Source of the DNA: Flavobacterium lindanitolerans
GTDB taxonomy: Bacteria > Bacteroidota > Bacteroidia > Flavobacteriales > Flavobacteriaceae
Direction: 5' to 3'
Assembly: GCF_002846575.1 (NCBI RefSeq)
Contig: NZ_PJND01000007.1
Location: 1,612,001-1,676,000, forward strand
DNA length: 64,000 nucleotides
Shown here: positions 44,407 through 60,502 of the stretch, one piece after another
How the letters are laid out: every line of letters starts with the position of its first letter
How positions within the stretch are numbered: position 1 is the first letter of the stretch
Made by a program: the position numbers and the translations under genes
Notes under the pieces: generated by a model
What the model saw: only the letters and a program-made list of their open reading frames with translations
Database searches by the model: none
What the model was told of the DNA's origin: nothing

Positions 44407-44428
44407 TTGACTCATTTATATATAAAGA

Positions 44429-57176: not shown

Positions 57177-57251
57177 AGTTGGAATTTTTTTGTAAAAATA
57201 AATAAAATTACTGCATGAATAAGTAGTTTAACAAAGGCTTTAAGATAGTTG

Positions 57252-57310
57252 ATAGTGGATAGTCGATAGCCTATAGTGGATAGTCGATAGAGGGTAGTGG
57301 ATAGTTGGGA
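57252..57310. repeat. Short 21-base direct repeats
   Basis: The unit ATAGTGGATAGTCGATAG occurs at 57252-57269 and 57273-57290, with a degraded third copy from 57,294, giving a 21-base period. It lies in the 450-base gap between bshC and the small peptide gene. On the minus strand the pattern is CTATCGACTATCCACTAT. It encodes no credible gene. Confidence 0.7.
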
Positions 57311-57422
57311 AATGCCGGAGTTAAAGTGAAAAAGATAAATAGTTAGAGTGGAGTTTTGGTTGAAAACAAAAAATAAAAAATAAAGTTTTTCATTGTACAT
57401 CTAAATTTTCTTTGCGAAATTT

Positions 57423-57542
57423 CACCTTAGCACCTTAGCACCTTAGCACCTTAGCACCTTAGCACCTTAGCACCTTAGCACCTTAGCACCTTAGCACCTT
57501 AGCACCTTAGCACCTTAGCACCTCAGCACCTTAGCACCTCAG
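57423..57542. repeat. Tandem array of 15 CACCTTAG octamers
   Basis: Fifteen head-to-tail copies of the eight-base unit CACCTTAG fill 120 bases. Copies 13 and 15 are CACCTCAG; the rest are identical. The period is not a multiple of three, so no frame repeats cleanly. The array ends 15 bases before the TTG of the promoter at 57,558. Such runs can change length by slippage. Confidence 0.95.
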
Positions 57543-57557
57543 AAACTTTAAAAAAAT

Positions 57558-57589
57558 TTGCATAATTCAAAAAATATTCTAAATATTTG
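57558..57589 (+). promoter_or_regulatory. Promoter of the 27-residue peptide gene
   Basis: TTG (57558-57560) and AATATTTG (57582-57589, one mismatch to TAnnTTTG) are 21 bases apart. Transcription would begin near 57,595, about 33 bases before the ATG at 57,628. Confidence 0.5.
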
Positions 57590-57627
57590 CACTCGAAAAA
57601 TTAATAACACTTTTAAAACGAAGAAAA

Positions 57628-57711
57628 ATGACTGTATTGGCATTATCATTTCAAAGCTACTCACCAACAGGATTTGGTGCTGTGCGTCTTCGTGGCTTAT
57701 TTCAATCTTAG
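57628..57711 (+). CDS. 27-residue peptide, possible leader peptide
   Basis: A complete short ORF: MTVLALSFQSYSPTGFGAVR followed by LRGLFQS and TAG. It has a promoter 39 bases upstream and a strong terminator 21 bases downstream, so it forms a compact transcription unit. Within the ORF CACCAA (57662-57667) pairs with TTGGTG (57674-57679). The last codons can pair with the 5' arm of the terminator. Residues R20-L21-R22 form an Arg-x-Arg motif of the type known to stall macrolide-bound ribosomes. Possible leader peptide for the rtcB operon; no family recognised. Confidence 0.5.
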   Translation: MTVLALSFQSYSPTGFGAVRLRGLFQS

Positions 57712-57768
57712 AAATTATTTTTTAGATATATAAAAAAGCCCGAAGCATTTTAGATTCGGGCTTTTTTT
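57689..57768 (+). terminator. Intrinsic terminator with a possible antiterminator arm (attenuator)
   Basis: The terminator stem is AAAAAAGCCCGAA (57732-57744) with TTCGGGCTTTTTT (57755-57767), loop of ten bases, followed by T and A. The sequence TTCGTGGCTTATTT (57689-57702), inside the peptide ORF, can instead pair with all 13 bases of the 5' arm, with one bulged T and one A-A mismatch. The two structures exclude each other. Confidence 0.6.
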
Positions 57769-57810
57769 ATTCTAGACACTTCAAAATTTTCCCGAAAAAT
57801 AGTTCCATTA

Positions 57811-57829
57811 TTTATCCCGAAAGGATAAA
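57811..57829 (+). other. Hairpin upstream of rtcB
   Basis: TTTATCC (57811-57817) pairs with GGATAAA (57823-57829) around the five-base loop CGAAA. It is followed by AAGATTTG (57829-57836), one mismatch from a -7 element. It could be part of a second promoter region or a structured leader of rtcB. Confidence 0.4.
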
Positions 57830-57912
57830 AGATTTGGCATGCTTATGTTTCATTTCCATAGTATTTGGAATTCACGTAAGTCTGCACAGAATAATTACAA
57901 TTAATAAAATTT

Positions 57913-59304
57913 ATGGGAAATAAATTATCTGGAAAAGACCTGATTAAATTGGGCTTTCCAAAAAATAATTCAATAAATATCGCCCTTGGGCAAATAAACA
58001 GATATAGAAAAAGAGAAAAAAAGGAATCCATTCTGGCAGAAGCGAAAGAGGTTTTGCTGCATCCGGAAAAATTCAACGGACATGGAACATGGGGAAAAGT
58101 GGCTGAAGGTCTGGTTAATCCCGTGCAAGTAAGAATGCATCAATTGAAAACAACAAGGGCTCCCTTTACGATTTTTGGAGAAAATGAAATCGATGAACAG
58201 GCCAAGTTTCAATTGTATGACTCGCTCAAACTGCCAATTTCAATAGCAGGAGCCTTAATGCCTGATGCACATTCGGGATATGGTTTGCCAATTGGAGGCG
58301 TTTTGGCAACAGACAATGCTGTGATTCCATACGGAGTTGGTGTCGATATTGGTTGCCGTATGAGCCTTTCTGTTTTTGACCTTCCGGCATCATTCCTAAA
58401 AGGGAAAGACGACCAGCTACAGGCCATATTGAAAGACCATACCAAATTCGGGATGTATGAGACACATGCAATTAAGGCAGACCATGAAGTGTTTTACAGA
58501 AAAGAGTTTCAGGACATTCCCCTGTTAAAACGTCTTTTGGATAAGGCTTACAAACAGCTTGGTACGTCAGGAGGAGGCAACCATTTTGTGGAATTTGGAA
58601 TCGTCAAAATTAATAATCCGCTACGCGAATGGAAAATAGAAGCAGGCGAGTACTTTGCTGTTCTTTCTCATAGCGGTTCGCGCGGATTAGGAGCCAATAT
58701 TGCAAAGCATTATACCTATCTGGCAACAAAACAATGCCCGTTGCCTAGGAATGTACAGCATTTGGCCTGGCTTGACCTCAATACGCATGACGGACAGGAA
58801 TATTGGCTCGCAATGAATCTGGCGGGTGATTATGCCAAAGCCTGCCATGACGATATTCACAGAAGAATTGCCAAAATACTCGGAAAAAGAGTGGTAGTAA
58901 CCATTGAAAACCATCACAATTTTGCATGGAAGGAGATGGTAGATGGCAAGGAGTGCATTGTCCATAGAAAAGGGGCGACTCCGGCTGCAGAAGGACAATT
59001 GGGGATTATTCCGGGTTCAATGACAGTACCGGGCTATATTGTGAGAGGAAAAGGAAATGCTGAAAGCTTAAATTCAGCTTCACATGGAGCCGGGAGATTG
59101 TTTTCAAGGGCAAAGTGCAAAGGTACTTTCACACAAAGCGAAATCAACAGAGTGCTGAAAGCAAATGAAGTTACACTTATTGGTGGCAATATTGACGAAG
59201 CTCCTATGGCTTACAAAGACATTACGAAAGTAATGGAAAACCAAAGCGAGTTGGTAGAAATACTGGGAACTTTCACTCCAAAAATTGTCAGGATGGACCG
59301 ATAA
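57913..59304 (+). CDS. rtcB: RNA ligase RtcB, PrfH-associated
   Basis: A 463-residue GTP- and manganese-dependent RNA ligase joining 3'-phosphate or 2',3'-cyclic phosphate ends to 5'-OH. Active-site residues are visible: MPDAHSGYGLPIGG (116-129), C148 in GVDIGCRMSL, GGNHF (N223, H224), H253 in SHSGSRGLG, H334 and H335 in IENHHN, and the guanylylated H391 in SASHGAGRLFSR. The RtcB group encoded next to prfH is reported to repair cut 16S rRNA. The gene lies 12 bases before prfH. No RtcR regulator or RtcA is present. Confidence 0.95.
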   Translation: MGNKLSGKDLIKLGFPKNNSINIALGQINRYRKREKKESILAEAKEVLLHPEKFNGHGTWGKVAEGLVNPVQVRMHQLKTTRAPFTIFGENEIDEQAKFQLYDSLKLPISIAGALMPDAHSGYGLPIGGVLATDNAVIPYGVGVDIGCRMSLSVFDLPASFLKGKDDQLQAILKDHTKFGMYETHAIKADHEVFYRKEFQDIPLLKRLLDKAYKQLGTSGGGNHFVEFGIVKINNPLREWKIEAGEYFAVLSHSGSRGLGANIAKHYTYLATKQCPLPRNVQHLAWLDLNTHDGQEYWLAMNLAGDYAKACHDDIHRRIAKILGKRVVVTIENHHNFAWKEMVDGKECIVHRKGATPAAEGQLGIIPGSMTVPGYIVRGKGNAESLNSASHGAGRLFSRAKCKGTFTQSEINRVLKANEVTLIGGNIDEAPMAYKDITKVMENQSELVEILGTFTPKIVRMDR

Positions 59305-59316
59305 AAAAGTAAAAAA

Positions 59317-60006
59317 ATGGAAAAGATAATTCAGATAACAGCGGGCCGTGGGCCTGCAGAATGCACTTGGGTAGTTGCCCAGGTGCTTAAAAAAGTGTTG
59401 GCAGAAGCACAGGAGCTACAGCTTGAAGCTGTTTTATTGCAACGCCAGGCAGGTTCTGAAAATGGAACAGTTGAAACCGCTACAGTTTCTGTAAAAGGAA
59501 AAGACGTGTCAATGTTTGTAGCCTCCTGGGTTGGAACTATCCAATGGATAGGCCAAAGCCAGTTCAGGAAGATGCACAAGCGTAAAAACTGGTTTATTGG
59601 GATTTTTGAAATCGAAAACCAAAAAAGCCAGACGATTTCAGAAAACGAAATCCAATATCAGGCAATGAGAAGTTCAGGAGCCGGTGGACAACATGTGAAC
59701 AAGGTGAGTTCTGCTGTCAGGGCGACACATTTGCCAACAGGAATTACTGCGGTTGCGATGGACAGCCGGTCACAGCACCAAAACAAAAAACTGGCAACAG
59801 AAAGATTATTTAAAAAACTAGAAAGCGAAAATTTGCAGCAGCTCAAGGAACAGGTAGGCAAACAATGGGAAAACCAACTGAATATACAACGCGGAAACCC
59901 GATAAGGGTATTTGCCGGAACCGATTTCAAGAAGAATAAAATTGAGAAAAGCTATAAAGGAACCCGCAGAAAATTAAAAACAGATTTAAGAAATGAAAAC
60001 AATTGA
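59317..60006 (+). CDS. prfH: Peptide chain release factor homologue PrfH
   Basis: A 229-residue release-factor-like protein with a GAGGQ motif at residues 121-125 (RSSGAGGQHVNKVSSAVR). It lacks the N-terminal stop-codon-reading domain of RF1/RF2, as PrfH does; the first 100 residues form a smaller domain with FVASWVGTIQWIG. PrfH releases peptides from ribosomes damaged in the decoding centre so that RtcB can reseal the 16S rRNA. The stop codon overlaps the start of the next gene by 14 bases. Confidence 0.93.
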   Translation: MEKIIQITAGRGPAECTWVVAQVLKKVLAEAQELQLEAVLLQRQAGSENGTVETATVSVKGKDVSMFVASWVGTIQWIGQSQFRKMHKRKNWFIGIFEIENQKSQTISENEIQYQAMRSSGAGGQHVNKVSSAVRATHLPTGITAVAMDSRSQHQNKKLATERLFKKLESENLQQLKEQVGKQWENQLNIQRGNPIRVFAGTDFKKNKIEKSYKGTRRKLKTDLRNENN

Positions 60007-60502
60007 TAAATATGTATTTCAGGCTTTAGATAGCTATCCCTATTCACTCGAAGAAACCATTGAGTCATTGGATTACGCTTTTTCCTATGATGCTAAAAAT
60101 ACAATGGTGCTTTGTCTTTATGGAAGAATCCAGGCGGAGCAATTGCTGAATTATGAAGCCGCTAAAAATTATTTTGAAGAGGCTTTTACAATTAATATTC
60201 ATGCACTTGAGGTTTATCCTTATTATATACAGACGCTTATCTTAAATGAAGATTATGAAGAAGCGATGCGATTAATTGATTTTGCACTTACAATCAAAGG
60301 CATAAGTAAAGCCGATATTTTTGTAAAGAAGGCCATACTTTTTGAAGTACAGCATAAATTCAAAAAAGCAATGAAAGAAATCAGAAATGCAAAGCTGTAT
60401 TCAATTCATTATGATTCTGAGTCTGTGATTCGGGATGTTGAAAAAAGAATCAAGGGTAAGATGGAATTGATAAAAATGAAAGCCAAAAAGAAATCAAATT
60501 AA
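59993..60502 (+). CDS. TPR-like protein coupled to rtcB-prfH
   Basis: A 169-residue all-helical protein with tetratricopeptide-like repeats: TIESLDYAFSYDAKNTMVLC, then AAKNYFEEAFTINIHALEVY and EEAMRLIDFALTIKGISKAD. The C-terminus is basic (KGKMELIKMKAKKKSN). It starts 14 bases inside the end of prfH, so translation is coupled, and it is followed by the operon terminator. TPR proteins bind partner proteins or RNA. Its position suggests a scaffold for the ribosome-repair pair, which I infer from coupling alone. No family name is assigned. Confidence 0.85.
   Translation: MKTIDKYVFQALDSYPYSLEETIESLDYAFSYDAKNTMVLCLYGRIQAEQLLNYEAAKNYFEEAFTINIHALEVYPYYIQTLILNEDYEEAMRLIDFALTIKGISKADIFVKKAILFEVQHKFKKAMKEIRNAKLYSIHYDSESVIRDVEKRIKGKMELIKMKAKKKSN

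Follow-up and report, generated by a model that had tools for sequence, protein, structure and literature searches.

A putative leader-peptide transcription attenuator of the rtcB-prfH ribosome-repair operon in Flavobacteriales

The rtcB-prfH ribosome-repair operon in the window, a 64,000-nucleotide stretch of the Flavobacterium lindanitolerans genome, is very probably controlled by a ribosome-mediated transcription attenuator. A preliminary description of this DNA had proposed a leader-peptide attenuator here, and comparative evidence from related leaders supports that reading. In the proposed mechanism, a healthy ribosome would quickly arrive at the UAG stop codon of a short leader ORF and cover the RNA segment at its end (segment 2), so that segments 3 and 4 would form a terminator and transcription would end before rtcB. 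A ribosome stalled or crawling in the first half of the ORF would leave segment 2 free and, near the start, would also cover segment 1. Free segment 2 would then pair with segment 3 ahead of the synthesis of segment 4, letting RNA polymerase continue into rtcB-prfH. When initiation fails, pairing between segments 1 and 2 may protect the terminator, which is the least sure step. The sensed signal would be a general failure of elongation, such as ribosomes cleaved in the decoding centre might be expected to show, and not a particular amino acid or drug; this is suggested by the lack of a residue run and the low conservation of the peptide. The operon would thereby sense its own stalled ribosomes.

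Layout of the leader and its operon

The features described here lie on the forward (+) strand of the window. A probable Bacteroidota-type promoter (57557..57589) opens the leader, with TTTG at 57557-57560 and a -7 element, AATATTTG, at 57582-57589; the latter has the relaxed form [TA]AnnTTTG and is one mismatch away from TAnnTTTG, which we take to be the Bacteroidota -7 consensus. Segment 1, CGAAG (57619..57623), is situated at the translation start site and competes with segment 3 for segment 2. The leader peptide ORF (57628..57711) comprises 27 codons, ends in UAG (57709-57711) and would encode the peptide MTVLALSFQSYSPTGFGAVRLRGLFQS. Its final codons contain segment 2, CTTCG-T-GGCTT-A-TTT (57688..57702), in which CTTCG, a bulged T (57693), GGCTT, a mismatch (57699) and TTT follow one another; its partner is either segment 1 or segment 3, in the latter case over 57732-57745. 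Segment 3 (57732..57746) is the terminator 5' arm and the antiterminator partner of segment 2, and segment 4 (57755..57768) combines the 3' arm, TTCGGGC, with the U-tract of a predicted hairpin of -16.7 kcal/mol. Segment 5, TCCCGAAA (57790..57797), has a putative role, since its sequence complements segment 4 and, in part, the start of rtcB; a second copy is found at 57815-57822. Between the terminator (~57732-57768) and rtcB lie 144 nt of leader. The promoter, ORF and terminator are all present as the preliminary description claimed, and the complement of the terminator 5' arm at the ORF end, with its one bulge and one mismatch, proved one base longer than stated there. The CGAAG before the start codon and the CCCGAA within segment 5 (57790-57797), after the terminator, are two elements beyond that description.

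The first gene, rtcB (57913..59304), encodes an RNA ligase of the PrfH-linked kind (Pfam RtcB, 8e-83), and its nearest NCBIfam models, RtcB_rel_intein2, PRK09588 and release_rtcB, each score under their cut-offs. It is followed by prfH (59317..60006), encoding peptide chain release factor H, which matches TIGR03072 at 230.5 bits against a cut-off of 166.65 and carries GGQ in its translation. A gene for a TPR-like protein (59993..60502; TPR matches below cut-offs) overlaps the end of prfH and probably belongs to the same operon; a TPR gene beside RFH-RtcB has been described (PMC6514570). Upstream of the leader, bshC is divergent, and tandem CACCTTAG-type repeats occupy 57424-57545, just upstream of the leader promoter. 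No Rfam family exceeded its gathering score in the window, where 57200-58100 gave sub-threshold matches alone, and a known Rfam family was thus ruled out as the identity of the leader.

Taken singly, the sequence complementarity in the window is modest and not exceptional. The 2:3 duplex reaches -14.5 kcal/mol, compared with shuffle means of -8.4 and -9.0, and shuffles did as well in 0/50 cases in one run and 1/50 in another. Among the terminator-like hairpins of the window, 6 of 71, the leader's included, have an upstream complement reaching -14.5 (5/70 of the others). The best of these, at 44428, follows an ORF that presumably encodes a 2-oxoacid dehydrogenase subunit, and no leader was seen there. 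The leader folds better than its shuffles (z -4.0, a value that includes the terminator), and the 1:2 and 4:5 duplexes were matched by 7/100 and 10/100 shuffles, respectively. The case for the attenuator consequently rests on relatives.

Distribution of the leader and its association with prfH

A tblastn search with the leader peptide identified 52 of 299 genomes of the genus, with one copy each. Among the 30 matches made into loci, rtcB was nearby in 30/30, in most of them ~200 or ~915 nt downstream, and the ~915-nt loci carry a basic gene, here called gene X (~248 residues), between leader and rtcB. Across the order, covariance model R1 found the leader at 54 bits or more in 83 of 395 genomes; among the matches listed, the next ones scored 47 bits or less, and the four of these weak matches that were fetched had no rtcB. 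The leader was followed by rtcB in 82 of the 83 genomes (74 of the 75 fetched, on the same strand, and all 8 others). PrfH exceeded its curated cut-off in 81/395 genomes, and all 81 had the leader, leaving 0 genomes with prfH and no leader; two genomes, G601 and G604, had a leader with no PrfH over the cut-off. The association gives a Fisher p of 6e-83, taken without regard to kinship. The G601 leader (L100) looks intact; neither rtcB nor prfH was matched in the 3.5 kb that follow it, and it is perhaps a relic of operon loss.

The association was also examined from the side of rtcB. In 30 of 46 rtcB matches, made into loci (L031-L060) and searched for prfH within the fetched DNA, 20 had both prfH and leader, 8 had neither, and 2 (L033 and L047) had a leader but showed no prfH up to 1.5 kb from rtcB. 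The 22 leaders scored at least 79 bits, compared with a best score of 26.4 bits in the 8 loci lacking one. Since the prfH loci all have the leader and rtcB loci without prfH mostly do not, the leader goes with PrfH and not with RtcB in general.

On a wider scale, a pattern scan of one genome per species (84,980 species) returned at least 119 stretches. Among the matches listed, 105 had rtcB within 1.65 kb, 6 had gene X next, 4 had too little DNA, and 4 had neither gene (in a Clostridia, a Myxococcales and a Phycisphaerae genome and in Flavimaribacter); these last four probably reflect chance. Model R2 matched 9 of 395 genomes in a class-wide sample at an E value of 1e-5, among them G976, from another order, in which a divergent leader precedes rtcB. 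In Capnocytophaga leadbetteri (L198), the leader precedes gene X and prfH, and rtcB lies 3.8 kb away; the leader thus keeps to the operon when gene order changes.

The operons vary in their additional genes. Gene X, which encodes a basic protein of ~248 residues, lies between leader and rtcB in 42/119 leaders (for example, L006:1750-2493). It had no Pfam or NCBIfam match, its sequence matches in the PDB were at chance level only, and its predicted structure (mean pLDDT 79) had no PDB fold match at E 0.001; perhaps it is the highly charged accessory protein of PMC6514570. Additionally, 32 of the loci L092-L169 have genes inserted between rtcB and prfH, namely NTase-like (~181 aa) in 25 and zinc-ribbon-like (~200 aa) in 8, with one locus holding both. 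NTase and ZnR accessory genes of RFH-RtcB operons had already been noted (PMC6514570).

Conserved pairings, the leader peptide and alternative explanations

Related rtcB-prfH loci have both the peptide and the terminator, and the covariation sought upstream of the operon was found, with compensatory changes in segments 2, 3 and 4 and fewer in the 1:2 pairing. In an alignment of 24 leaders (A2), the predicted antiterminator (2:3) was 92% paired, with 6/13 pairs changed on both sides, its covariation equalled in 0/500 shuffles and all five measures reached by at most 2/500. In the same alignment, the terminator (3:4) was 96% paired and had double-sided changes in 3/11 pairs, though the number of additional pair types was not above shuffles (312/500). 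In 40 more diverse leaders (A3), 2:3 was 84.5% paired, with 43 cells changed on both sides against 16.5 (0/500 shuffles), and two of the five measures were not above shuffles (83/500 and 289/500). For 1:2 in A3, 97.5% of cells were paired; a single pair varied at both positions, CG becoming UA in two sequences, and others had GU. Again, two of five measures were not above shuffles (49/500 and 481/500). The A3 counts for 1:2 and 2:3 are lowered because MAFFT misaligns segment 2 in L136 and L137, and likewise the start in L135. By eye, CTGAAG before the start is matched by CTTCAG at the ORF end in L132 and L138, GACTTT by AAAGTC in L131 and L134, and GCATTT by AAATGC in L136. Comparison thus shows a predicted antiterminator and an intrinsic terminator conserved with compensatory changes, and an alternative 1:2 hairpin conserved with few of them.

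A duplex search placed the best upstream partner of the terminator 5' arm across or against the leader ORF end in 118/118 leaders, with a mean of -17.2 kcal/mol compared with -9.0 in shuffles; 89/118 leaders beat all 50 shuffles. The partner begins between -36 and +1 from the stop codon and ends at -12 or later (118/118). Judged by the size of the ribosome footprint, it is therefore within reach of a terminating ribosome, at least partly. The best partner of the start-site region was likewise the ORF end in 118/118 leaders, 112 of them at no more than 5/100 shuffles. A hairpin with a T-run was present in 118 of 119 leaders; the script's rule missed it in L129, which was left out of the duplex, start-site and energy-gap counts (hence 118). 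Because many leaders are closely related, these counts do not represent independent events. L137 reads segment 2 in a different frame (its peptide ends in VVRFGVFVFS), and L141 has the segment after its stop codon; both keep the RNA and neither keeps the peptide. By this comparison, the conserved item is an RNA segment near the stop codon.

Predicted folds bear on the timing of the switch. When the two structures set against each other in the preliminary description were compared, the antiterminator proved weaker at equilibrium, where the terminator is favoured by 9.5 kcal/mol in the window (mean 11.5, range 2.7-18.5 over 118 loci) and has a probability of 0.96 in the full-length fold at every ribosome placement; this tells in part against the attenuator. 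However, the antiterminator dominates before the 3' arm is made: in RNA ending before segment 4, the 2:3 probability was 0.96-0.97 with no ribosome (37 C), 0.79-1.00 with a ribosome mask on the start codon or on codons 5-14, and 0 with a ribosome at codon 20 or at the stop. Because the terminator wins at equilibrium, the switch would have to be kinetic, acting during transcription, and in these models such a switch is possible. In the intermediate fold without a ribosome, 2:3 (0.96) beats 1:2 (0.03), so the no-initiation step, in which 1:2 would protect the terminator, is unsupported by equilibrium folding.

Segment 5 may add a second, translational lock, for which the evidence is suggestive only; once transcription has passed the terminator, the rtcB start could be left accessible by the pairing of segments 4 and 5. 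Against the 10/100 in the window, the 4:5 duplex stood at no more than 5/100 shuffles in 87/118 leaders, and among the 118 searched it was not found in L125 and L141. Pairing of segment 5 with the next gene start reached that level in 54/75 rtcB-first and 15/42 gene X-first loci, and, when 30-nt windows taken along each leader served as the comparison, the gene start came out best in 42/75 and 24/42. As gene starts are constrained by their proteins, this pairing is no firmer than suggestive. A conserved hairpin between segment 5 and rtcB was also considered and not supported (RNAalifold on 17 loci, -6.5 with a covariation term of 0.5).

The peptide itself is weakly constrained, as indicated by substitution rates. 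All 119 leaders have a frame starting at the same place, 25-29 codons long in 118 and 19 in the other. Base shuffling would leave 27.4/119 frames open (16.5/75 for leaders found by the RNA model), a comparison in which openness is partly by construction because the script that chose the frame read it to the first stop under a length limit; in frame +2, these bases run without a stop in 83/119 and meet one in 36/119. Calculated only for the unique ORFs of 27 codons (48) and 25 codons (43), dN/dS in the two length groups was 0.83 and 0.60 for the body (codons 2 to L-9) and 0.59 and 0.41 for the last nine codons. The stop is UAG in 113/119 leaders, compared with 4/40 window ORFs of at least 180 aa; if termination at UAG were slow and kept the ribosome on segment 2, this preference would be accounted for.

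Four other explanations were weighed. The leader could be an independent small gene or small RNA acting in trans, with rtcB read from its own promoter after the terminator. The terminated leader of ~170 nt could indeed be an abundant small RNA, and a TAGTATTTG stretch precedes rtcB in the window. However, the leader stays before rtcB in nearly every genome that has it, the peptide is weakly constrained, and the conserved 2:3 pairing would be left unexplained. Promoter counts point the same way. In the 90 nt before the leader ATG, the strict TAnnTTTG occurs in 83/119 leaders against ~4 expected and the relaxed form in 116/119 against 9.6; from the terminator to the next gene (the first 250 nt after the ORF where that gene is far; 117 leaders, without L129 and, for want of rtcB, L100, which were also left out of the segment 5 gene-start counts), the strict form is rare, at 3/117 against 12.5-13.5 expected, and the relaxed form is about at chance, at 22/117 against 26.3. 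Since the -7 element is enriched before the leader and its strict form is rare downstream, the clear promoter is the leader's, and weaker internal promoters may follow the terminator in some species. We consider the trans explanation improbable.

Drug- or peptide-specific stalling of the erm/cat type, in which a nascent chain with Arg-Leu-Arg would act together with a macrolide, appears very improbable. The Arg-Leu-Arg motif pointed out in the preliminary description is present in the window peptide and in 44/52 peptides of 25 residues, but in only 2/52 of 27 residues and 47/119 overall; since it is not conserved, stalling of this type is not supported. Moreover, the Leu-Arg-Gly codons coincide with segment 2, whose RNA L137 and L141 keep without the peptide, and a ribosome stalled at these codons would mask that segment, promoting termination. 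Because the peptide is weakly constrained and the motif is not conserved, the position of the ribosome is the likely signal in the attenuator proposed here.

An attenuator sensing amino-acid starvation, as before trp or his operons, would share the layout, and Phe is codon 2 in 108/119 leaders, encoded by both TTC and TTT; yet the window peptide has Thr there, no single-residue run was seen in the leader peptides listed, and the task of the operon is RNA repair and not the synthesis of an amino acid, which renders this explanation less credible still. Least probable of all is the binding of RtcB, PrfH or another protein to the leader RNA with an incidental ORF, for although segments 1, 3 and 5 share a protein-readable CCGAA(G)-like sequence, the frame has a like length in the 119 leaders, its stop is predominantly UAG, and segment 2 is tied to the stop codon.

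Related systems and other phyla

Mutually exclusive 1:2, 2:3 and 3:4 pairings are the hallmark of trp-type attenuators, and the rtcB-prfH leader has the same arrangement. In contrast to these, no control codons for a pathway product were seen in it, and its segment 1 lies at the start site, outside the ORF. By description, the closest known system is the PA5471.1 leader before armZ (PA5471, RtcB-like) and PA5470 (prfH) in Pseudomonas aeruginosa, which has in common a leader peptide and a predicted terminator before an RtcB-like/PrfH gene pair (PMC12057347, PMC13041342). There, completed translation is proposed to give the 3:4 terminator and ribosome stalling to give readthrough (PMC12057347, PMC13041342). 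Drugs that target the ribosome and defects in translation elicit a response from the system (PMC12057347, PMC13041342), and a deletion or an early amber codon there raises ArmZ (PMC13041342, PMC12057347). It differs in belonging to another phylum and in that its ArmZ is the MexZ anti-repressor, and a review calls for confirmation of the attenuation. The vmlR leader of Bacillus subtilis likewise comprises a uORF, anti-antiterminator, antiterminator and terminator and is induced by translation defects, combining transcription and translation attenuation (PMC9226507). However, it controls an ABCF resistance factor and owes its specificity to drugs that stall ribosomes on its uORF (PMC9226507).

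The operon itself has been described. The RFH-RtcB repair operons of PMC6514570 are the same operon, with like accessory genes (TPR, NTase, ZnR, charged), and the main text of that paper does not mention a leader peptide, attenuation or riboswitch. The RtcB-PrfH operon is also described in PMC1586002, in the covered parts of which terms for a leader or attenuation were not found, and RtcB2-PrfH protects E. coli from colicin E3 (PMC9223846). A flavobacterial transcriptome gave clues of leader-peptide attenuation before amino acid operons, and rtcB is absent from its main text (PMC9723704). No report of an rtcB-prfH leader in Bacteroidota was found in the literature within scope, which left aside most subscription papers and all bioRxiv preprints, nor did the literature covered on the operon yield a statement on an inducer of RtcB-PrfH outside Pseudomonas.

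Short ORFs before rtcB in other phyla offer a lead from sequence inspection. Seven of 46 plasmid-collection records with prfH were examined. A short ORF with a Shine-Dalgarno-like sequence precedes rtcB in E. coli (MTNPLSMTLCRPFQD), Proteus (MTTTNMNTLCGQSQK), Tritonibacter and Aureibacter; by the same rule, Skermanella had none, and no rtcB match was found in L332 and L334. On the E. coli plasmid (L330:1691-1738) and in Proteus (L331), these are 15-codon ORFs with a strong Shine-Dalgarno sequence before rtcB2-prfH, and they are absent from the gene tables, which are incomplete. In both, the ORF end can form 10 bp with the Shine-Dalgarno region (-16.4 and -15.7), and it also pairs downstream, with one compensatory difference. 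Only Tritonibacter showed a terminator-like hairpin on the coding strand.

It is conceivable, though we hold this only tentatively and think it rather unlikely as a whole, that sensing of ribosome failure through a leader peptide is the general wiring of rtcB-prfH reached in several phyla: in Flavobacteriales and G976, in Pseudomonas through PA5471.1, in E. coli and Proteus through the 15-codon ORFs, and perhaps in Aureibacter and Tritonibacter. The leader described here would then add a second lock acting on translation, with segment 5 closing the rtcB start except where segment 5 is captured by segment 4. Within its own order, the leader provides a sequence marker for PrfH operons. If the attenuator reading is true, the damage sensor would sit in the leader of the repair operon itself, and damaged ribosomes would call for their own repair.
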